From: Argonema antarcticum A004/B2
GTDB taxonomy: Bacteria > Cyanobacteriota > Cyanobacteriia > Cyanobacteriales > Aerosakkonemataceae
DNA: 64,000 nt
Assembly (NCBI RefSeq): GCF_023333585.1
Contig: NZ_JAIQZN010000007.1
Span: 1-64,000 of the forward strand
Direction: 5' to 3'
Shown here: in pieces, positions 22,207 to 37,333 of the stretch
How the letters are laid out: every line of letters begins with the position of its first letter
Position numbering within the stretch: the first letter of the stretch is position 1
Notes under the pieces: generated by a model
The model's input: the letters and a program-made list of their open reading frames with translations, nothing else
Told to the model about the DNA's origin: nothing
Database searches by the model: none
Made by a program: the position numbers and the translations under genes

Positions 22207-22328
22207 GCCCGCCTGCGATTTGAATCGCAGGCTCATAGCGAAAGTCCACTGAAGTGGACTGAATTGCGTTTTCCAGTCCACTTCAGTGGACTTCAGCTAT
22301 TAGCCTGGGAATTAATTCCCAGGCGGGC
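22207..22328. repeat. 122-bp nested palindrome, family G
   Basis: The two arms (about 55 bp each) are near-complementary from GCCCGCCTG... to ...CAGGCGGGC. Each arm itself holds two smaller palindromes, CCTGCGATT/AATCGCAGG (or CCTGGGAATT/AATTCCCAGG) and GTCCACTGAAGTGGAC. A half copy lies at 30359-30415. No reading frame; it is a likely MITE/REP element able to form a cruciform. Confidence 0.85.
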
Positions 22329-28096: not shown

Positions 28097-28258
28097 GAAA
28101 TGGCTAAAGGGGGCAAGTTAGTTAAATTTTAACCACAGATGAATACAGATGAACACAGATGAACACAGATAAGAACGCCATGTTGAGATTTAGCGCTAAA
28201 GCGCAACAACATACCTGGGTTTTCCAGTAATATAGATTCAACTGCCATTTTGCCCAAT

Positions 28259-30217
28259 ATGATTTGCTGTCTCAACCCCGATTGTCAAAATCCCGTCAAT
28301 CCTGATGGGACAAAACATTGCACCAGTTGTGGGACGAAAATGATACCTTTACTGCGGGGACGATTTCGCGTTATGGAACCGCTGGGACAAGGTGGTTTTG
28401 GCAGAACTTATTTGGCGGAAGATGAAGATAAACTGAAGGAACGCTGCGTGGTGAAACAATTAGCGCCAAATGTGAGTGGAACTTGGGCGCTAAATAAGGC
28501 GGTGCAACTGTTTCAGCAGGAGGCGCAACAGCTGCAAGCTTTGGGCGGACATCCGCAAATTCCAGCGCTGTATGCTTATTTTGAAGAAAGTGGTTATTTG
28601 TATTTGGTGCAGCAGCTGATTGATGGAGAGAATTTGTGGAAGTTGTTGCAGAAGCAGGGTGTTTGGCGAGAAAGTGAAATTCGGCAATTTTTATTGGATA
28701 TTTTACCTGTCCTTCAGTTTATCCATTCTCGGCATATCATTCACCGCGATATCAAACCGGAAAATATAATGAGGAATCGCACGAATGGGTTGCCAGTTTT
28801 AATTGACTTTGGCGTTTCTAAAGAACTGTCGCAAACGGTGATGGCGAAAACGGGAACAAATATCGGTTCGCAAGGTTATGCGCCTATCGAACAAATGCAG
28901 GATGGTAAGGCGTATCCCGCTAGTGATTTATTTAGTTTGGGTGCGACTTGTTTTCAATTGCTGACTCAAGTTCATCCTTATCGTTTGTGGATAAAACAGG
29001 GTTATAGTTGGACGGCGAATTGGCGAAAACATTTAAAGAGTCCGATTAGTAATGAGTTAGGTCGGATTTTGGATAAGTTGTTGCAAGAAGATATGCAGCG
29101 ACGCTATCAGTCTGCTGAGGAAGTTTTGCGGGATTTGCAACCGCCGCCACCACCGCCTGCTGCTTCTCCTCAAACTCGCCGCAATTTTCTGCAATTTGCT
29201 GGATTTGCTGGTTTGGGATTAATTGGAGTTATTTTATATCGGTTTGGATTTGCTAATAAATCAAGTGAGGGTGAAAAATCTGTTTCTGTGCGTGACTTGC
29301 CTGAAAGCGAAATACCGACTCCTACTCGTAATTCACCTGTACCTACAAAACAACCTGTAAAACCTGCGAATAGTTTAAGTAAGTTTTCATTTGAAGTTGT
29401 GACGGTAAATGCTGGCGGTGCAATAATTAATCGCCGCAACAGGGAAGCGGAATTTTTTAGGGAATATATTAATGGAGTGAGTTTGGAAATGGTATCGATT
29501 CCCGGTGGTACTTTTATAATGGGTTCGCCGGATGGGGAGAAAGGACGGTATAGCGATGAAGGGCCACAGCATCAAGTAGCTGTGGCATCTTTTTTTATGG
29601 GGAAATATGAAGTAACTCAAGCTCAATGGCAAACTGTCGCTGCTTTACCGCAAATTAATATATCTTTGAATGCTAATCCATCGAGGTTTAAAGGTGGAAA
29701 TCGACCTGTAGAAAATGTAAGTTGGGATGAAGCACGGGAATTTTGCGCCCGACTTTCTATAAAAACGGGGAAAACTTATCGTTTACCTAGCGAAGCGGAA
29801 TGGGAATATGCTTGTCGGGCGGGAACGACTACTCCTTTCTATTTTGGGGAAACGATTACTGCGGATTTAGCTAATTACAACGCAAGTTCTACTTATGCTT
29901 CGGAACGGGAAGGAATTTATCGAAAAGAAACAACTGATGTGGGGAGTTTTCCACCGAATGCTTTTGGTTTATACGATATGCACGGAAACGTTTGGGAATG
30001 GTGTGCTGATTCTTATCACGAAAATTATAATGGTGCTACGTCTGATGGAAGTGTTTGGGAGTCTGGTGGAGATAATAAATACCGGGTGGGGCGTGGAGGT
30101 TCTTGGGACCACTCTCCTGCGGATTGCCGTAGTGCGCTTCGTTCTTGGCTCGCTCTGGTTAGCAGGTACGACCATTTGGGATTTCGGGTAGCGGTATCGT
30201 CCGGATTCCGTTTGTAG
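28259..30217 (+). CDS. Ser/Thr protein kinase fused to FGE/SUMF1 domain; DGR target protein
   Basis: 652 residues from ATG 28259 (upstream TTG at 28250 less likely). In order: an N-terminal four-Cys zinc ribbon (CLNPDCQ...CTSCG, 4-25) and a protein kinase with G-loop LGQGGFGRTY (42-51), Lys66, HRDIKPEN (162-169) and DFG (183-185). Then come a proline run, a twin-arginine-like TRRNFLQ followed by a membrane segment (about 309-329), a linker, and an FGE-sulfatase/SUMF1 (C-lectin-like) domain (about 405-650: MVSIPGGTFIMGSPDGE, YRLPSEAEWEYACRAG, GNVWEWCAD, RGGSW). The last 40 or so residues are encoded by a variable repeat that matches a template 457 bp away, differing at template adenines. The kinase should be cytoplasmic and the variable domain outside the inner membrane. 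Confidence 0.9.
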   Translation: MICCLNPDCQNPVNPDGTKHCTSCGTKMIPLLRGRFRVMEPLGQGGFGRTYLAEDEDKLKERCVVKQLAPNVSGTWALNKAVQLFQQEAQQLQALGGHPQIPALYAYFEESGYLYLVQQLIDGENLWKLLQKQGVWRESEIRQFLLDILPVLQFIHSRHIIHRDIKPENIMRNRTNGLPVLIDFGVSKELSQTVMAKTGTNIGSQGYAPIEQMQDGKAYPASDLFSLGATCFQLLTQVHPYRLWIKQGYSWTANWRKHLKSPISNELGRILDKLLQEDMQRRYQSAEEVLRDLQPPPPPPAASPQTRRNFLQFAGFAGLGLIGVILYRFGFANKSSEGEKSVSVRDLPESEIPTPTRNSPVPTKQPVKPANSLSKFSFEVVTVNAGGAIINRRNREAEFFREYINGVSLEMVSIPGGTFIMGSPDGEKGRYSDEGPQHQVAVASFFMGKYEVTQAQWQTVAALPQINISLNANPSRFKGGNRPVENVSWDEAREFCARLSIKTGKTYRLPSEAEWEYACRAGTTTPFYFGETITADLANYNASSTYASEREGIYRKETTDVGSFPPNAFGLYDMHGNVWEWCADSYHENYNGATSDGSVWESGGDNKYRVGRGGSWDHSPADCRSALRSWLALVSRYDHLGFRVAVSSGFRL

Positions 30218-30230
30218 TCTCCTTTGCCAG
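30082..30230 (+). repeat. DGR variable repeat (VR)
   Basis: 149 bp aligned without gaps to 30539-30687 (offset 457). There are 17 differences: 16 are positions where the template has A and the VR has G, C or T. The single exception is VR 30205 (A, template G) in the 3' invariant part. The first 100 bp hold all the A-substitutions. The last 49 bp (30182-30230), spanning the TAG stop, are otherwise identical and fit the IMH segment of DGRs. Affected residues: 610, 611, 617, 618, 622, 627, 629, 630, 631, 634, 635, 637 and 639. Confidence 0.93.
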
Positions 30231-30358
30231 GACTCTTACCCTTTGCTCTTTTATCCTTTTACCCTTTTCCCTTCTTTTCCCTTTTCACTTCTTCCGCCGC
30301 AGGCGGATCAAATTTTTTTTTAAAATAGGAGTAAATCATATCTTGTGCCAGTTACCAG

Positions 30359-30415
30359 ACCCGCCTGGGATTCAAATCCCAGGCTAATAGCGAAAGTCCA
30401 CTGAAGTGGACTGAA
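30359..30415. repeat. Half copy of family G palindrome
   Basis: 'cccgcctgggattcaaatcc' through GTCCACTGAAGTGGAC matches one arm of the element at 22207-22328. It lies between VR and TR. Confidence 0.75.
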
Positions 30416-30434
30416 TATTAATAACACAAGAGTC

Positions 30435-30502
30435 TGTAGGGTGCGTCAGAGGTCAAAATTTTGGCGGCAATGATTAATTTTCTTCTTCTGACGCACCCTA
30501 CA
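30435..30502. repeat. 68-bp MITE-like element with 16-bp TIRs, family E
   Basis: TGTAGGGTGCGTCAGA (30435-30450) and TCTGACGCACCCTACA (30487-30502) are perfectly complementary. It sits between VR and TR, 36 bp before the template repeat. Confidence 0.85.
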
Positions 30503-30538
30503 AATTTGATGATATGATTAAGTTTGGGGCAGACACTT

Positions 30539-30687
30539 CCGGATGGAGCGTGGAGGTTCTTGGAACAACTCTCCTGCGAATTGCCGTAGTGCGAATCGTA
30601 ATAGGAACGCTCTGGATAACAGGAACGACAATTTGGGATTTCGGGTAGCGGTATCGTCCGGGTTCCGTTTGTAGTCTCCTTTGCCAG
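30539..30687 (+). repeat. DGR template repeat (TR), probable non-coding RNA
   Basis: This is the adenine-rich partner of the VR. Read in the VR frame it gives RGGSWNNSPANCRSANRNRN then ALDNRNDNLGFRVA, with Asn (AAC/AAT) at nearly every varied site. That is the usual logic of DGR templates, since AAY codons mutated at A can reach many residues without creating stops. Of 27 adenines in the first 100 bp, 16 differ in the VR; none of the C, G or T positions there does. There is no start codon or continuing frame. A possible -10 box TATGAT lies at 30513-30518 and a hairpin with T-run at 30791-30838. No reverse transcriptase gene is nearby. Confidence 0.93.
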
Positions 30688-30790
30688 TACTCTTCTATGC
30701 CAGAACTGGTAGATGGGAATTTACCGGGTGAGTAATGAAGAGTCCAAGTCTGTTCCAGTGATGAAGATAACTTTGTCCAAATATAAACCT

Positions 30791-30838
30791 AAATCGGGTG
30801 GCTTGGTAGGTGAATAACCGAAGACTCGCCCGATTTTT
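30791..30838 (+). terminator. Hairpin with T-run downstream of the TR
   Basis: AAATCGGG (30791-30798) pairs with CCCGATTT (30829-30836), followed by TT. It would end a transcript coming from the TR region just before the first antitoxin gene. The 30-nt loop makes it a weak terminator. Confidence 0.4.
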
Positions 30839-30855
30839 AAGTTATAAAGCAGATT

Positions 30856-31182
30856 ATGAAAAACTTGAAAATGCCAACGAGTAGAAGTTACCATAAGTTT
30901 CTAATTGAATCTCTGAAAAACCCGGAAAGATCTGCTGCTTATATCGAAGCTGTTTTAGAATTGGAAGAAGAAAGTCCCGATCCAGAACTACTGCGGGCGG
31001 TGTTTAAAGATGTTATTGATGCACGTATTAATGCTAACAATATCTCGGATTCAGCGAAACAGTTGCATGAAAAATTCGATCAAATGCTAGCAGAAAGTAA
31101 TGCTTCTGAAATTTACACTTTTATTGAATTACTGGATGAACTGGGTTTTCGAGTAGCGATACGCGCTGACGCCGACGAATAG
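30856..31182 (+). CDS. Antitoxin 1, HI1420-like addiction-module antidote
   Basis: 108 residues. The layout matches putative addiction-module antidotes of the HI1420 family: an N-terminal segment SYHKFLIESLKNPERSAAYIEAVLE, then the helix-turn-helix region DSAKQLHEKFDQMLAES...IYTFIELLDELGFRVAI. It should bind and neutralise the HI1419-type toxin and repress its own operon. A toxin gene follows after 59 bp. The start context (ATGAAAAACTTGAAAA) is that of an antitoxin overlapping a toxin 3' end, as in antitoxin 3, so an ancestral upstream toxin may have been lost. Confidence 0.75.
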   Translation: MKNLKMPTSRSYHKFLIESLKNPERSAAYIEAVLELEEESPDPELLRAVFKDVIDARINANNISDSAKQLHEKFDQMLAESNASEIYTFIELLDELGFRVAIRADADE

Positions 31183-31257
31183 CGCGATCGCACCCACGCA
31201 GTTGCCCTGATATTATTATGGTAAGCGGCTACAATGAAATCATGGAAGTGCAACCAA
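31143..31257 (+). repeat. Direct repeat of antitoxin-toxin junction, unit 1 of 2
   Basis: The antitoxin 3' end, the 59-bp spacer and the toxin 5' end are repeated almost exactly at 31839-31953 (offset 696 bp). The spacer is far more conserved than the flanking coding parts. This records a tandem duplication of an antitoxin-toxin unit, with either recent conversion or selection on the spacer. Confidence 0.85.
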
Positions 31258-31580
31258 GGGAAATTCAGCGTTACGTTACACCAGATGGCAAAATTCCTTT
31301 CTCCGAGTGGTTGTATTCCCTCCGGGATCTCAAAACTCAAACCAAGATCCGTGGGAGGCTTGAACGAGTTGAGCTAGGTAATTTAGGCGACTACCGCGCC
31401 GTAGGAGAAGGAGTCTGTGAATTCAGAATTGATTATGGCCCTGGCTACCGAATTTATTTTGGACAAATAGGATCTATTATAGTGGTTCTACTCTGTGGTG
31501 GAGATAAAAGCACTCAAGAGCAAGACATTCGTACAGCTAAGGAATACTGGGCAGAATATAGGAGTCAAGACAATGCTTAA
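31242..31580 (+). CDS. Toxin 1, HI1419/Gp49-like (RelE/ParE superfamily)
   Basis: 112 residues from ATG 31242 (MEVQPREIQRYV); the upstream ATG 31218 gives 8 more residues. Family motifs: YVTPDGKIPFSEWLYSLRD, KIRGRLERVELGNLGDYRAVGEGVCEFRIDYGPGYRIYFG, and LLCGGDKSTQEQDIRTAKEYW. RelE/ParE-fold toxins of this group usually cut mRNA on the ribosome. The stop overlaps the start of the next antitoxin by 8 bp, so the two are coupled. Confidence 0.8.
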   Translation: MEVQPREIQRYVTPDGKIPFSEWLYSLRDLKTQTKIRGRLERVELGNLGDYRAVGEGVCEFRIDYGPGYRIYFGQIGSIIVVLLCGGDKSTQEQDIRTAKEYWAEYRSQDNA

Positions 31581-31878
31581 AAGTGTTAGTTACCATGAAG
31601 ATTTGATTCAATTTCTCAAAGACCCAGAACACGCTGCTGGCTACATCGAAGCTATCTTAGAAGAAAAAGATCCCGAACCGGAACTGCTCCGCAATGCGCT
31701 TAGAAAAGTTGCAGAGGCTTATCTAAAAAGCAATAAACTCTCAGATTCGGCGAAGCAGTCTCATGAAAAACTCGACAAGATGCTGACAGAAAGTAGGTGT
31801 ACTGAAATTTACACTTTTATTGAATTATTGGATAACCTGGGTTTTCAAGTGGCGATACGCGCTGACGCTGACGAATAG
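31573..31878 (+). CDS. Antitoxin 2, HI1420-like
   Basis: 101 residues from ATG 31573 (MLKSVSYHEDLIQFL), which overlaps the toxin 1 stop by 8 bp. A longer frame from 31495 would run through toxin 1 and is rejected. The helical N-terminus and HTH-like C-terminus (LSDSAKQSHEKLDKML...LLDNLGFQVAIRADADE) are as in antitoxin 1. A toxin follows with the same 59-bp spacer. Confidence 0.75.
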   Translation: MLKSVSYHEDLIQFLKDPEHAAGYIEAILEEKDPEPELLRNALRKVAEAYLKSNKLSDSAKQSHEKLDKMLTESRCTEIYTFIELLDNLGFQVAIRADADE

Positions 31879-31937
31879 CGCGATCGCACCCACGCAGTTG
31901 CCCTGATATTATTATGGTAAGCGGCTACAATGAAATC

Positions 31938-32282
31938 ATGGAAGTGCAACCAAAGCAAATTCGACGTTATATTACCCAAGATGGCAGAGTTCCTTTTGCT
32001 CAGTGGTTGGATTCCCTTCGAGATCCAAAAGCCAAAAACCGGATTCAGTTGAGGCTTGACCGAATTGAGGAAGGCAATTTAGGGGATTGCCGTTCAGTTG
32101 GAGAAGGAGTTTTTGAGCTTAGAATTGATTATGGCCCTGGTTATCGAGTCTATTTTGGACAAATAGAATCTATTATTGTACTTCTCCTCTGTGGTGGAGA
32201 TAAAAGCACTCAAGATCGAGATATTCGCAAAGCTAAGGAGTATTGGGCTGATTATGAAAAATCTGAAAACGCCAACGAGTGA
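31938..32282 (+). CDS. Toxin 2, HI1419/Gp49-like (RelE/ParE superfamily)
   Basis: 114 residues from ATG 31938 (MEVQPKQIRRYI). It has the same motifs as toxin 1 (DGRVPFAQWLDSLRD, RIEEGNLGDCRSVGEGVFELRIDYGPGYRVYFG, LLCGGDKSTQDRDIRKAKEYW) with many substitutions, so the two toxins have diverged while keeping the fold. It overlaps antitoxin 3 by 29 bp. Confidence 0.8.
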   Translation: MEVQPKQIRRYITQDGRVPFAQWLDSLRDPKAKNRIQLRLDRIEEGNLGDCRSVGEGVFELRIDYGPGYRVYFGQIESIIVLLLCGGDKSTQDRDIRKAKEYWADYEKSENANE

Positions 32283-32577
32283 TAGCTATCACGACTACCT
32301 AATTGAGTCTCTTAAAAACCGCGAAGAAGCGGCGGGTTATATTGAGGTGGTGCTAGAAGAAGGAGGCGACCAACCAATATTACTACGAAAGGCAATTAGA
32401 AATGTTGTTGAGTCTTGTGCAAAAAGCGATCGACTTTCTGATTCAGCGAAACAGTTGCATGAAAAATTCGATCGCATTCTAACAGAAAGTAATGCTACTG
32501 AAATTTACACTTTCGTAGAGTTACTAAATGCGATCGGTTTTCGAGTGGCGATCGCACCCAAAGATCCTGAGTCCTAA
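32254..32577 (+). CDS. Antitoxin 3, HI1420-like
   Basis: 107 residues from ATG 32254 (MKNLKTPTSDSYHDYL), overlapping the toxin 2 end by 29 bp. The frame upstream to 32176 belongs to toxin 2's shadow. It has the same domain pattern (LSDSAKQLHEKFDRIL...LLNAIGFRVAIAPKD). The array therefore runs A-T-A-T-A and closes with an antitoxin, giving three antidotes for two toxins. Confidence 0.75.
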   Translation: MKNLKTPTSDSYHDYLIESLKNREEAAGYIEVVLEEGGDQPILLRKAIRNVVESCAKSDRLSDSAKQLHEKFDRILTESNATEIYTFVELLNAIGFRVAIAPKDPES

Positions 32578-32600
32578 ATGCGATCGCTTCTTTTACCAGT

Positions 32601-33221
32601 TTATCGCTTCGGTAACATCGGACGCATAATCAAATAACCAGCACCGAACGCCGTCACCACAATCATCACGATCGCAAACGTCAACCACCATCCATTCACC
32701 TCAGAACTTTTTTCTGGCTGGGGACGACGACGATTGCGGGTTTCTGGCTGTTCTATCACTAATTTTGCTGGCAACCCAGAGTCTGTCGGTTCCATTTCTG
32801 GGAAAATGTTTGATATATCAACCCCCGGCGCAGAAGGGGTAGCATTGGAAACAGAACGAGTCCGACGAGGCATCGGAGGTGCTTCTGGTATAGGGCGGCC
32901 CGGTTCGGTTCTTAATTCGGGATGAGTGTAGGAAGGTTGACTCCAGCCACTTGGTACAGAAGAGTCCGCTATCTGCTGTAGATGGAGACTCGCATGAACA
33001 ACCTTTTCAATTTCCCGACGCAGCTGTTGATTTTGTTGAGACATCTGCTGATTTTGGTTATTCAGCGAGTCCAGCATCACCTTAGTCGCTTGCAACTCTG
33101 CTGCGAGTTCTCGATAAAGCGAAATTGGTACGGAAGGTGAGTAAGCACCGGGTGCTGTTTGGGAATTATGACCTGCACTCGCATTGGGCACCGATTGCTT
33201 GGGATTGAAGTTAGATGTCAT
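32601..33221 (-). CDS. Coiled-coil protein with C-terminal membrane anchor
   Basis: 206 residues. A disordered N-terminus is followed by a coiled coil (about 35-85: LAAELQATKVMLDSLNNQNQ and following Gln-rich heptads), a Pro/Ser-rich middle, and a single membrane segment near the C-terminus (WWLTFAIVMIVVTAFGAGYLIM, about 178-199). I do not recognise a family; the layout is that of a tail-anchored scaffold. It lies downstream of thiD on the same strand, with 117 bp between. Confidence 0.65.
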   Translation of the reverse strand: MTSNFNPKQSVPNASAGHNSQTAPGAYSPSVPISLYRELAAELQATKVMLDSLNNQNQQMSQQNQQLRREIEKVVHASLHLQQIADSSVPSGWSQPSYTHPELRTEPGRPIPEAPPMPRRTRSVSNATPSAPGVDISNIFPEMEPTDSGLPAKLVIEQPETRNRRRPQPEKSSEVNGWWLTFAIVMIVVTAFGAGYLIMRPMLPKR

Positions 33222-33338
33222 AAGCTTCTTCGCTTTACCTAGAATTGCGTCAGACAGAGGCGACCTGTATAACTATGCCTCAGAATAGTCCAGATCGGGA
33301 AAATATCACAAGCTGATTTAAAATATTCTTTTTTATTT

Positions 33339-34163
33339 TTACAGAGGCTTTTGTAATATGGGAAAAAAGTGTCCCACCGGCCCTTGACCGTGACCGATAT
33401 TTAAAGCATACTCCAAAGCGGCGCTGACATAATCCTTTGCCAGTCGAACGGCAGAGAATAAATCTTTGCCTAGTGCTAGATTAGCTGCGATCGCAGCTGC
33501 GAGAGTACAACCAGTACCGTGAGTATTCGTCGTCTCTACCGTCGATGCACTCAAAGTTTCCAGCCGACTACCATCAAACCAAACATCCACACCACGCAGA
33601 CTCCCCTGCATCCCGCCTCCCTTGACCAAAACTGCTTTAGATCCCAGTTGGTGAATACGCTGTGCTGCTTCCCCCATATCATCCAGAGTCAGAATCTCCA
33701 ACCCACTTAAAATTTGCGCTTCATAACGATTTGGCGTTACGATCGCCGCTTGGGGGATTAGCTTAGAGCGCAAGCACATTACCGCATCATTGTCAATCAA
33801 TTGGGCTCCTGTACGGGACACCATCACCGGATCGACCACCAAATTATTCAGCCCTAAAGCTTCTATGCGATCGGCCACTGCGGAGATAATCTCCTGGTTG
33901 AGCAGCATACCCGTTTTAGTAGCTTGCACCCCGATATCTGCAACCACTGCCTCAATTTGGGCTATAACAGCCGCAGCCGGTAGAGCGTCAACCCGTGTGA
34001 CGCCCAAAGTATTCTGAGCAGTCACGCAGGTTATGGCGCTGGTGCCGTGGACGCAGTGAAAGGCAAATGTCCGTAAATCAGCCTGAATTCCAGCACCGCC
34101 ACCACTATCGGAACCAGCTACAGTCATAGCTACAGGTACGCTTAAGCCATTTCTTGGCCTCAT
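33339..34163 (-). CDS. thiD: Hydroxymethylpyrimidine/phosphomethylpyrimidine kinase
   Basis: 274 residues, the family length. It phosphorylates HMP and HMP-P with ATP for thiamine synthesis. Motifs: VAMTVAGSDSGGGAGIQADLRT at the N-terminus, VVDPVMVSRTGAQLID, VTPNRYEAQILSG, VLVKGGGMQG and NTHGTGCTLAAAIAANLA with the catalytic Cys/Asp anion hole. Cytoplasmic. It follows ftsZ on the same strand with a 120-bp gap. Confidence 0.93.
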   Translation of the reverse strand: MRPRNGLSVPVAMTVAGSDSGGGAGIQADLRTFAFHCVHGTSAITCVTAQNTLGVTRVDALPAAAVIAQIEAVVADIGVQATKTGMLLNQEIISAVADRIEALGLNNLVVDPVMVSRTGAQLIDNDAVMCLRSKLIPQAAIVTPNRYEAQILSGLEILTLDDMGEAAQRIHQLGSKAVLVKGGGMQGSLRGVDVWFDGSRLETLSASTVETTNTHGTGCTLAAAIAANLALGKDLFSAVRLAKDYVSAALEYALNIGHGQGPVGHFFPILQKPL

Positions 34164-34283
34164 ACTACCAAAAGGATGAAAGATTCTGGACTCGTGGGCG
34201 GCAAAGCAGACCCCTTTGCCGTCGCCGACCCGTACTTGCAGATGCTAGGAGCGAAATTACGGCTTTATAGGTAAATTTTGGCC

Positions 34284-35543
34284 TTATTTCGGGGGGCGTC
34301 TCCTTTGGAGAAACTCCGGGATGTCCAAGCCACCTTGTTTATCTGGGGACTCAGGATTTGCGGGAGGTTTAGTTGGAGTCGGTGATATCGATCGCGGTGG
34401 TTGAACTTTAGCCCCTCGCGATTGCGTTGAGCCTTGCGGTTCGCCGCTAAACCCAGTCGCAATCACCGTAATCCTAATTTCGCCTTGCAGCCTTTCATCA
34501 ATGACTGCCCCAAAAATAATATTGGCGTTGGGATCGACTACTTCGTAGATAGTTTCCGCAGCCGCATTGACTTCGTGCAAAGTCAGATCGGTTCCACCCG
34601 TAATGTTAAACACCACGCCTTTGGCTCCATCCACAGAAGCTTCCAGTAAAGGAGAGGAAATAGCTGCGATCGCCGCCTCTCTGGCACGCGATTTGCCAGA
34701 ACCAACACCGATTCCCATCAAAGCTGAGCCTGCATCCGCCATAATAGCGCGGACATCGGCAAAGTCAACGTTAACCAAACCGGGGATAGTGATGATATCC
34801 GAGATCCCCTGCACACCCTGACGCAGAATGTCATCTGCTACCCGAAAAGCTTCCTGCACCGGCGTTGTCTCTGGGATCACAGACAGCAGGCGATCGTTCG
34901 GAATAATAATCAGCGTATCTACCCGACTTTGCAAAGCCGCAATGCCTTCCTCCGCCTGGTTCGTGCGCCGCCGTCCTTCAAACAAAAAAGGACGAGTTAC
35001 TACCCCAACGGTTAAAGCGCCCACTTCCTTTGCTGTTTCAGCAACGATTGGTGCTGCACCAGTACCCGTACCGCCTCCCATCCCAGCCGTAATAAAAACG
35101 AGATCCGAGTTGGCTACAGCTGCGGCAATTTCGTCGCGAGACTCCTCAGCGGCTTTCTGACCGATCGCCGGATTGCCCCCCGCTCCCAGTCCCCGCGTCA
35201 ATTTCTGTCCCACTTGCAAGCGTCTTGAGGCAGATGATAAAGTCAGAGCTTGAGCATCTGTATTAATCGCCCAAAACTCAACACCAGCGAGATCGCTGGC
35301 GATCATGCGGTTAACCGCATTGCTTCCACCCCCGCCGACGCCAATCACCTTAATTTTGGCTATCCGACTTGGCACGATATCGCTACTTCGAGATGTTTCC
35401 TCAGCCATACCTTTGGCATCGCGAACTTGACCGAACTGAAATACAGTATAGGGATTAACGGCGTCCACCGTCGGTGCCAAACCCGGTTGTCCCTCTGCTT
35501 GGGAACGGTTAAAAGCGAGCCCCTGTTTATTATTAAGCGTCAT
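34284..35543 (-). CDS. ftsZ: Cell division protein FtsZ
   Basis: 419 residues. A cyanobacterial N-terminal extension of about 60 residues precedes the GTPase: [14 protein letters not shown], the tubulin signature [12 protein letters not shown] (about 154-165), and the T7 loop in [11 protein letters not shown]. The C-terminal tail ends with the FtsZ peptide [12 protein letters not shown], used for binding partners. It polymerises to form the division ring. It sits downstream of ftsQ on the same strand, the usual cyanobacterial ftsQ-ftsZ order. Confidence 0.97.
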
Positions 35544-35705
35544 TGCTCTTCAAAAATAGCTGGTAAACAACTTTTCAATTTTAGGTAGCTCAAGTCAACT
35601 ATAGGCTAAGTCGGTTGAAAAACCAATAATAGTGACAAAGCCGATTTTTCGGTTGAAAACGCCTTTTTCAAATAGCCCTGCGGTTACGATATCTGCGATC
35701 GGTTT

Positions 35706-36581
35706 TTAGCGAGGATCGGGATCTTTGTCCGAACTTGCTGGTTCTAGCAGTTGAATCGCTGGGGCTTCTGGTTTTTTGAGGTCAATGTAAGCAATTTGGC
35801 GTCCATTCAGTTTAGCTGACAATTGTCTCAAGCGATCCAGGACTTTGAGTTGCTCCGGCAACTGGGAACTGTACGATCCCAGATGTACGATTCCTAACTC
35901 AGTTTTCAAGATTAAATTTTCCGGGTCTTGCCAGTCAATCTCAGAAACTTTCACAGGACTAAGACGAACTACTTGATAAAGTTGAGACCAGTATGGCAGA
36001 TACCGATCTCTAGAACCGATAATTTTGAGGTTTGGCAACGGAAACGACTTATCTATGCTGGTGTTGTTTTTTATAGGCATCCAAACACCTTTTTCATCGA
36101 GCAACCCCATCGTCGATTCTTGGGATCGCGTTTTTCCCTCTTTTGCGGCGATCGAGAGGCTGCATCGAACGTTTGTACAGGCTAGAGCCACCGGCTGTCT
36201 TTCCTGAATTTGTACTGTCAGGCTGGGCGGGAATAGCTGCCGGGTAACTGTAGCTTTGGCAATCAGCGACTGCCTCGACTCCAGTTTTGCAGCCAGCACT
36301 TGAGGTTCAATTCGGAGCAAAGACTGGGGATAGGATAAGGATAACAGAGACCGAATCGTTCTAGAGGAAAGAAGTTGATTGCCCTCTATAGAGATCTGCT
36401 CTGGGTGACGAATTACCCACACTGGTTGAGTGCTTCCCCAGAGTAAACCCAGGGCCAAACTGCTGAGCGCTAAAGTCCGCCAAATATCGTGAACCGTGTG
36501 GCGACGCCTTTGGCGACGCAAGGTTTGACGCCGCTGGCTCAAGTCCGCAGGCGAGACTGATACAATACTGGTCATCCTCAT
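35706..36581 (-). CDS. ftsQ: Cell division protein FtsQ (POTRA domain)
   Basis: 291 residues. A basic cytoplasmic N-terminus (RQTLRRQRRRH), a single membrane segment (about 36-56) and a periplasmic POTRA domain (ISIEGNQLLSSRTIRSLLSL...VTRQLFPPSLTVQIQERQPVAL, about 82-135) are followed by the FtsQ beta domain to the end. It is a bitopic divisome protein. It lies 162 bp upstream of ftsZ, probably co-transcribed. Confidence 0.9.
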   Translation of the reverse strand: MRMTSIVSVSPADLSQRRQTLRRQRRRHTVHDIWRTLALSSLALGLLWGSTQPVWVIRHPEQISIEGNQLLSSRTIRSLLSLSYPQSLLRIEPQVLAAKLESRQSLIAKATVTRQLFPPSLTVQIQERQPVALACTNVRCSLSIAAKEGKTRSQESTMGLLDEKGVWMPIKNNTSIDKSFPLPNLKIIGSRDRYLPYWSQLYQVVRLSPVKVSEIDWQDPENLILKTELGIVHLGSYSSQLPEQLKVLDRLRQLSAKLNGRQIAYIDLKKPEAPAIQLLEPASSDKDPDPR

Positions 36582-37333
36582 CCCTCAACTATGCGATCCT
36601 ATTCGACTGGTTAGTTTACTATGCTTAAACGTTGTATAGTAAATACTCGCTATTTGTTCAAATCTGCGATACAACCGCCGATTATTATACATAACACCTT
36701 ATTTTCCCTTGTTAAATCCAAACGCTCCGGAAGCGATCGCCCCTATTTCACCATCCGTAACCGATCGGCCAACTATTTAGCGCTCACATTGACTGCGGTA
36801 AGTCCACTGAACCGCAAAGGCTCATGACAAACTAGGAGCAGCAAGGATTTCATGTAATTTATTTTGAATCCAGTCAAGACCTTGTGGTGATTATCTATAA
36901 TCTGGGTCGGCTAGATATACGCCCTCTGACGGCTAGCAGACGATCGCAGCCAGAGTATTATAAAACTTCACTGACTTTCTAGTTATTTCTAGCTAATTAT
37001 AGTAGAATTTAGACAAAATGACGGCAGAACAATGCAGCTACTTGAAAAACACATTATCGCTCTTCACCACTCGGTATAAAAGAAGCTAGATAATTTATGC
37101 TTTCTTTCTAAGAATATTTTCAACTAGGCTAACTAGATAAAAATTAAAACTAGAAATCCCTCGCTAACTCTAGTTACTCTAGCGGGGGAGAAAATACAGC
37201 GCTTTTCAGGTTAGTGAGGTACACAAATCCCCGACAACTCCTGCGAAGTCGGGGATTAGTCCACATAGCCTCTACTTCATCCGACTGAAAGACGCTGTAA
37301 TATGTAGCACTCTCAAAAGAAAATTGACCAAAC
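36582..37333. other. Intergenic region, no supported gene
   Basis: 752 bp between divergent-side ftsQ and the carotenoid-binding gene. One short frame (36621-36827) has no recognisable feature. CCCTCGCTA/TAGCGGGGG pair at about 37159-37188, and a perfect 10-bp hairpin lies at 37226-37257. The rest looks like AT-rich promoter or untranslated sequence. Confidence 0.5.
37226..37257 (-). terminator. 10-bp perfect hairpin downstream of carotenoid protein gene
   Basis: AATCCCCGAC (37226-37235) and GTCGGGGATT (37248-37257) pair, 77 bp after the stop of the minus-strand gene. There is no long T-run, so its terminator role is tentative. Confidence 0.45.

Follow-up and report, generated by a model that had tools for sequence, protein, structure and literature searches.

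A compact diversity-generating retroelement cassette without a reverse transcriptase of its own in the cyanobacterium Argonema antarcticum

The first 64,000 nucleotides of contig NZ_JAIQZN010000007.1 from Argonema antarcticum A004/B2 (this stretch is the window; contig C164 of genome G000) carry a diversity-generating retroelement (DGR) that consists of a target gene, a spacer, a template repeat (TR) and a structured template RNA. No DGR reverse transcriptase (RT) and no full-length avd were found in the assembled genome, the RNA has been retained, and the differences between the TR and the variable region (VR) of the target are adenine-limited. The likely reading is that this is a compact, non-autonomous cassette which has lost avd and RT, whose VR was rewritten by an RT acting in trans, and which is now most likely idle. 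Comparisons were made, among others, with the sister species G001 and with G002 of the same genus. The parts of the cassette are as follows.

28250 to 30217, + strand: target gene (variable protein), a 655-aa open frame from the open reading frame list; Pkinase E 1.9e-41, FGE-sulfatase E 2e-59
30082 to 30237, + strand: VR, spanning the stop codon and 20 nt past it; 16 of its 18 differences from the TR are at TR adenines
30227 to 30237, + strand: 3' end of the VR, where the presumed IMH reads CCAGGACTCTT; the TR counterpart, CCAGTACTCTT, is at 30684-30694
30539 to 30694, + strand: TR, from repeat comparison with the VR
30684 to 30844, + strand: 3' portion of the template RNA, structured and RT-14-like; a covariance model scores it at 142.6 bits

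The target protein is a fusion of a Hanks-type Ser/Thr kinase with a C-terminal FGE-sulfatase/C-type-lectin-like (CLec) domain, and the VR lies at the end of the frame within this CLec/FGE domain (FGE-sulfatase residues 413-648), as is expected of a DGR. The TR starts 301 bp beyond the VR. Both repeats are 156 bp long and 88% identical; the 18 differing sites comprise 16 of the 32 TR adenines compared with 2 of the 124 other positions (Fisher p = 2.8e-11), which is the adenine concentration characteristic of DGRs. The changed adenines are replaced in the VR by T (6), G (5) and C (5), and over the first 123 sites 16 of 29 adenines had changed compared with none of 94 other bases. The TR and VR are therefore a genuine DGR pair. 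One of the two non-adenine differences, T30688 in the TR against G30231 in the VR, coincides with a TR/VR difference also seen in those other clade pairs that extend to this position, and is presumed, by analogy, to correspond to the IMH*/IMH difference named in the BPP-1 literature. The window TR shares 71-77% identity over about 95-115 bases with the RT-adjoining TRs of other families. A DNA search of G000 with the TR returned the window pair only, while a query with the VR of another G000 target, on C216, matched itself and the ends of FGE genes on C121, C222 and C143, with no TR seen.

The predicted absence of an RT from the window was borne out, as none of the six RVT_1 matches in G000 is located on C164 and tblastn of the window with seven DGR RTs gave nothing significant (best E 0.58). 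The G000 assembly has 7,742,486 bases in 249 contigs, with a completeness of 99.93%. None of the six RVT_1 places is a DGR RT (BPP-1 Brt, the control, scored 61.6 bits with RVT_1). The candidate of best-looking size, a 348-aa frame on C196, was ruled out as it adjoins cas1 and cas2 (Pfam E 3.6e-87 and 8.8e-21). The others proved to be an RT-Cas1 fusion (C14), group II intron RTs (C181 and C165), a retron-like RT below the NCBIfam cut-offs (C40) and a group II fragment (C137). G000 thus has two different CRISPR-linked RTs, one beside cas1 and cas2 (L007, on C196) and one fused to Cas1 (L008, on C14).

A DGR RT profile was built from six plasmid DGR RTs (five of them cyanobacterial) and Brt. With it, DGR RTs of other families that are complete or almost complete scored 485-667 bits, compared with 133 bits for the best G000 match, the CRISPR RT on C196. 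An early search of the family with the profile scored 7 of 13 G000 candidates and the later one 16 of 16; with all 16 profile candidates and all 11 tblastn candidates scored, no DGR RT was found in this draft assembly. At E <= 1, tblastn of G000 gave seven matches with a top identity of 32%. In ten genomes of the family, no DGR RT was detected either: no profile match exceeded 133 bits, and tblastn at E <= 1, with all candidates scored, gave identities of 22-36% only. A DGR RT elsewhere in G000, together with a second, RT-linked TR, had been proposed as the check on the original prediction, and neither was found by RVT_1, profile, tblastn or TR DNA search. Genes for such RTs do occur on plasmids: of 9 PLSDB records at E <= 1e-60, 6 are cyanobacterial plasmids, one of them with 70% coverage.

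The accessory gene avd is present in G000 as N-terminal pieces only, of 56, 29 and 21 aa, directly behind the FGE targets of C216, C222 and C121; none is located in the window, and a full-length copy was not found in the assembled genome. Similar pieces were found in G001, G002 and G003, making six further target genes in four RT-less family genomes. Behind FGE targets, avd N-termini of varying length were observed at L092:5292-5489, L093:4398-4487 and L094:4194-4259, and at L099, L100 and L101.

The region between target and TR suggests how this layout arose. RT-linked cassettes of the clade have the order target, avd, RT and TR, with the TR usually close behind the RT stop codon (e.g., G115, G209, G228 and G065); in two exceptions, Acaryochloris L048 and G254, the TR is elsewhere near the RT. 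The window contains the following features in this region.

30232 to 30330, + strand: C/T-rich leader with a hairpin, resembling the target-avd stretch at other loci; end point set by eye
30293 to 30307, + strand: hairpin TCCGCCGCAGGCGGA, then a T run; candidate target-recognition hairpin or terminator
30360 to 30416, no strand assigned: MITE (miniature inverted-repeat transposable element)-like repeat within the spacer, with further copies at 22208-22264 and, inverted, at 22274-22327
30435 to 30502, no strand assigned: second inverted repeat within the spacer, arms 30435-30450 and 30487-30502, read from the sequence
30526 to 30538, + strand: RT-TR junction remnant GGGGCAGACACTT, the sequence immediately 5' of the TR in RT-linked cassettes

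Both canonical junctions are therefore kept in the window, namely the start of the target-avd gap (leader, hairpin and T run, as on C216) and the end of the RT-TR junction; between them lie MITE-like repeats and neither avd nor RT. Judging from other loci, avd would begin at about the leader. An exact hairpin stem of 5-6 bp was present in 10 of the 12 stretches examined, including the RT-linked L049 and L051, a count made with no chance control, and was not found in the other two, G009 and L175. The motif GGGGCAGACACTT recurs, slightly altered, in most of the 12 loci compared. It is also present in G009, from another genus of the family, which has the same geometry as the window and a TR flank that, by eye, resembles an RT 3' end with a small hairpin. 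The window cassette would thus derive from a canonical order of target, avd, RT, TR and structured RNA in which avd and RT dropped out; left over would be the target gene, the hairpin leader, the TR and a complete 3' template RNA.

Directly behind the TR, the original prediction had described 160 bp of non-coding DNA leading to a toxin-antitoxin array. The distance was about right (161 bp), whereas the stretch is not blank, since it aligns with the sequence behind RT-linked TRs and holds a conserved structured RNA. A covariance model of 23 RT-linked cyanobacterial DGR RNAs, with the window excluded, matched 30684-30844 at 142.6 bits (E 2.9e-31), so that a structured template RNA 3' of the TR, another mark of a DGR, is present. 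RNAalifold on the 23 sequences gave 40 pairs, 26 of which showed compensatory change on both sides. All 63 named loci, RT-linked and RT-less, matched the model at 58-166 bits, having themselves been selected by a pattern inside the RNA; among 32 sources from the G genomes there were 7 matches, window included. When 30 RT-less RNAs were aligned by fitting to the model, 93.5% of pair cells were standard pairs and 27 of the 40 pairs had changed on both sides, although much of this covariation may predate RT loss. The Rfam family RF02921 (RT-14 RNA), whose name was found in no paper of the open-access library searched, gave a full-length match at 30690-30836 of the window with 41.6 bits, under the gathering score of 48.1, and exceeded that score in L175 (48.8 bits). 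A phage source for the RNA was rejected, as the pattern gave 0 matches in viral contigs. The pattern was also observed in two Candidatus Parabeggiatoa sp. HSG14 contigs (L217 and L254), one of them with a convergent DGR RT adjoining, and a possible explanation is transfer between phyla.

The case for action in trans rests on comparisons between related RT-less cassettes. G000 and G001 have in common the RT-less layout of variable protein gene, spacer and TR, with 291 of 300 aligned spacer positions identical and 97 of 97 identical over window positions 30530-30626. Further downstream, the first 1,000 bases compared contain 83 mismatches in 995, and 31361-36958 is 94.6% identical. The two VRs nevertheless differ at 20 of 29 TR-adenine sites compared with 2 of 94 other sites, and among the 8 sites changed in both the same base occurs at 1. 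The genomes share the RT-less layout, yet their VRs differ at adenines as if rewritten independently, so that the cis RT had probably been lost already when an RT worked in trans. Unless old alleles or recombination are responsible, one lineage or both must have undergone rewriting at least once since they split. At a second locus, C216 of G000 and C6 of G001 carry the same avd truncation, and their VRs differ at 15 of 27 TR-adenine sites compared with 9 of 81 others, with 93% identity outside the VR.

Other pairs show the same pattern. G234 and G281, assembled in 2 contigs each and without a DGR RT, have 0 mismatches in 129 TR positions and 2 in 141 RNA positions compared with 18 in 275 of the spacer (TR and RNA against spacer, p = 3e-4) and 155 in 922 aligned positions of the 1,000 bases before the VR; their VRs differ at 17 of 28 TR-adenine sites and at 0 of 101 others. 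For Nostoc L205 and L195 the mismatches are 4 of 116 in the TR and 4 of 145 in the RNA (counts that overlap by about 14 bases) compared with 20 of 185 in the spacer, and the VRs differ at 18 of 25 adenine sites compared with 3 of 87. Nine loci were compared in 36 pairs, and in all 36 the VR differences were more frequent at TR adenines than at other sites (largest p 3.2e-4). Mechanistically, the TR RNA would be transcribed, folded and reverse-transcribed by an RT and Avd encoded elsewhere in the cell, and that RT would have rewritten the VR at least once since the split from G001. Recruitment of Avd-RT by the structured RNA, and homing aided by the hairpin, may be taken over by analogy from what is described in parts of the BPP-1 literature (PMC12875486; PMC3240598).

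The strongest competitor, though an unlikely one, is simple loss: a deletion removed RT and avd, the sisters' VRs differ because they are alleles older than that deletion, nothing acted in trans, and TR and RNA are slowly decaying relics. The lack of an RT in 10 of 10 family genomes fits this, as do the avd pieces beside six further targets in four genomes and the truncated TRs of two genomes; structural variants with an intact RT have moreover been reported within one population of Thiohalocapsa (PMC10907252, in the part concerned). Against it, TR and RNA are better conserved than the spacer in the G234/G281 pair and in Nostoc L205/L195 (where the VRs also diverge at adenines), and old alleles would have to be retained by an entire RT-less set of Nostoc. 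Somewhat less probable again is that a DGR RT is present now, on a plasmid or an unassembled stretch, and that the cassette is active in trans today. This would be in line with the RTs on six cyanobacterial plasmids, with a draft of 249 contigs and with the lack of any non-adenine change in the first 123 VR sites, but the assembly is 99.93% complete without any fragment of such an RT, none was found in G001, G002 or seven further family members, and the 2-contig genomes G234 and G281 are also without one.

Use of the TR RNA by another RT of G000, whether CRISPR-associated, retron-like or of a group II intron, is very improbable. The nearest by sequence is the Cas1-linked RT on C196 (133 bits), which sits beside cas1 and cas2; no such RT is common to the RT-less genomes, and in G234, for instance, the DGR RT profile matched nothing at E <= 1e-15. 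Ordinary duplication of a 3' gene end, which can produce such a direct repeat, followed by chance divergence is an explanation that can practically be dismissed given the adenine bias and the conserved RNA behind the TR. The original prediction had offered the alternatives of an RT in trans or an RT lost with the cassette frozen. Each appears partly right, at different times: the G001 VR looks as if it had been rewritten independently despite the RT-less layout, so that an RT most likely acted in trans, and searches of G000, G001 and G002 now give no DGR RT, which in G000 is either gone or not assembled.

Several observations count against the reading of an RT-less cassette rewritten in trans. 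Transcription and activity of the cassette are deduced from its sequence, and with the RT missing in all ten family genomes the trans donor is not in hand, although a draft of 249 contigs can lack plasmids. A mobile donor RT is plausible because six cyanobacterial plasmids carry such RTs. The VR differences need one post-split rewriting only, which older allelic diversity in the ancestor could mimic, and in G001 the target begins with a different N-terminal part that lacks a kinase domain, so that recombination has touched the gene. RF02921 matched only 2 of the 5 sources tested, below the gathering score in the window, and gave no match at E <= 1 in the RT-linked L049 and L051 or in L167. Within the RT-less Nostoc set, the RT search covered G377 alone, where none was found. 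Signs of decay also belong here: in G001 the TR breaks off after 97 query bases and continues into a toxin gene, G002 retains only the 3' end of the target and the first part of the spacer, and the G009 TR is without its 3' end and without the RNA.

The cassette is probably idle at present in G000 because no such RT is detectable there. In this genus as a whole it looks idle and decaying, given that no DGR RT was found in G000, G001 or G002, that G001 has a shortened TR and that G002 has lost its target. At L019:6834-7169 of G001 (minus strand), the cut TR was observed to continue in frame into a RelE/ParE-type toxin, of which the C-terminal two thirds are present, giving a chimeric open frame of 111 aa (TIGR02683 positions 30-95, E 1.4e-29). 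Comparison of window 28250-29470 with L019 located the target difference in the N-terminal part, and the hypervariable domain appears to have moved between N-terminal modules.

Compact cassettes without an RT are not confined to the window. Adenine-biased TR/VR pairs with no nearby RT or avd were found by self-alignment in the window, G009, G010, G234, G281 and G291. A match resembling the TR or VR occurs in 37 genomes; a DGR RT, or part of one, scoring above 200 bits accompanies it in 22 of them, and in the other 15 there is none. No intact DGR RT was found in the eight whole genomes that carry a compact cassette (G000, G009, G010, G234, G281, G291, G360 and G377), G291 having an RT piece that matches model positions 1-128; this sample is biased, since any RT-linked TR in a genome would be the first to turn up, and no anticorrelation with RT is claimed. 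A search of genome contigs with the RNA pattern gave 109 stretches, and the counts here concern the 80 that were listed: in 33 an RT or RT piece lies no more than 900 bp upstream, in 28 the upstream sequence extends for at least 2 kb and shows no RT there, and in 19 it is too short. Three of the 28 (L201, L219 and L254) have RT pieces or a convergent RT nearby.

Closer inspection of the RT-less loci (34 rows, with three contigs counted twice or more) distinguished three classes. The compact class, with target, spacer, TR and RNA, comprises the window, G010 (L203), G360 (L234), G377 (L213), G234, G281 and G291, together with L195, L197, L205, L231, L237, L253, L259 and the doubtful L249; G009, which has no RNA, can be added. 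These are at least about 15 loci from several cyanobacterial families. In the collapsed class, FGE genes run straight into the template RNA (L189, L202, L206, L216, L230, L240, L247, L256 and L258), as expected if VR-TR recombination had deleted everything between. The remaining class has a TR or RNA without a target (L194, L212, L233, L235, L238 and L260). The spacers of eight loci (seven named Nostocales and G291) are homologous nearly end to end, with 69-91% identity.

A quick tree of the RNAs was made from 76 chosen rows and 163 columns, with SH-aLRT support only and no inferred root. It omits L102, which has no RNA, L254, and low-scoring, duplicate or unadded RNAs (for example L201, L212, L219, L223, L255, L203, L213, L234, L192, L200, L210, L239 and L261). 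The compact label needs 8 changes on this tree, of which starred branches force at least 5. One starred set consists of 10 Nostoc rows, 7 of them compact and 3 collapsed, and includes none that is RT-linked. Because of these forced changes and the RT-less Nostoc set, the compact form seems to have arisen several times and to have persisted once through part of Nostoc. Cyanomargarita carries both an RT-linked and a compact cassette (L218 and L253). The pairs of L168, L169, L183, L197 and L259 look old, with 11-20 non-adenine TR/VR differences, and L249, one of the 7 compact Nostoc rows, has a partial pair without adenine excess (4 of 9 compared with 14 of 42, p = 0.70). That enzyme-less cassettes recur in filamentous cyanobacteria suggests that the enzyme acts from another locus and that a genome may lose it. 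Going further, it is conceivable, and offered tentatively, that RT-less compact DGRs form a stable class in these bacteria, in which selection preserves template RNA and target over long periods, in genomes that mostly lack a DGR RT, and rewriting takes place when a plasmid or other mobile element brings an RT, or through an RT as yet unrecognised. If so, one part of the hypermutation machinery, the template-target pair, would be resident and the other, the enzyme, a visitor.

The neighbour of the cassette, outside the DGR, is the array that had been predicted downstream of the TR and was confirmed there.

30856 to 32577, + strand: toxin-antitoxin array of 696-bp repeats, RelE/ParE-family toxins alternating with antitoxin-like open reading frames

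The array begins after 161 bp. Its toxins match TIGR02683 (E 7.8e-36 and 2.7e-39), and the antitoxin-like frames tested (30856-31182 and 32176-32577) gave no NCBIfam family match. Toxin-antitoxin units at 696-bp spacing were seen at 30849-32552, and related arrays stand at the same place in G001 and G002.

Cassettes of this kind bear on whether RTs serve distant cassettes in nature, and searches that begin with the RT miss them. If the trans reading holds, hypermutable loci in cyanobacteria are under-counted, the template RNA rather than the RT becomes the search marker, and the G000/G001 and G234/G281 pairs and the Nostoc set make trans action testable. No description of an RT-less compact DGR class is known to us from searches of an open-access library, and the word 'non-autonomous' is not applied to a DGR in the open-access passages concerned. 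According to PMC10907252, in the portion that deals with them, experimentally characterised DGRs have all their parts at one locus.

The known systems resemble the window in part. The cyanobacterial DGR clade described in sections of PMC7517822 (Vallota-Eastman et al. 2020) shares with it the kinase and CLec/FGE target, the VR at the 3' end, and a TR and RNA homologous to those of RT-linked cassettes; those DGRs were required to have RT, VR and TR, whereas the window has no RT or avd at the locus or in the assembled genome. An RT-less TR-VR remnant was noted there for all3226 of Nostoc sp. PCC 7120, which is likened to the window by description only and which, unlike G000 and according to that paper, has two DGR RTs elsewhere in its genome; the sections of that paper on all3226 mention neither the RNA nor a recurrence of the layout. 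The incomplete DGR loci of Thiohalocapsa PB-PSB1, as presented in parts of PMC10907252 (Dore et al. 2024), are similar in having targets without their own RT that are apparently diversified in trans or in cells with the intact variant, trans action being an inference there too. They differ in belonging to another DGR lineage, in the presence of other DGR loci with an RT in the genome, and in that the trans targets match the TR of another locus, whereas the window TR adjoins its own target. In the BPP-1 DGR, the closest analogy for mechanism, a structured spacer recruits RT-Avd, a hairpin follows the VR, and a target on a separate plasmid works in the laboratory, going by the relevant passages of PMC12875486 and PMC3240598. 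The BPP-1 order is avd-TR-brt, and its reconstitution in E. coli, in the same passages, keeps the TR in an operon with avd and RT, whereas in the window the TR stays with the target.

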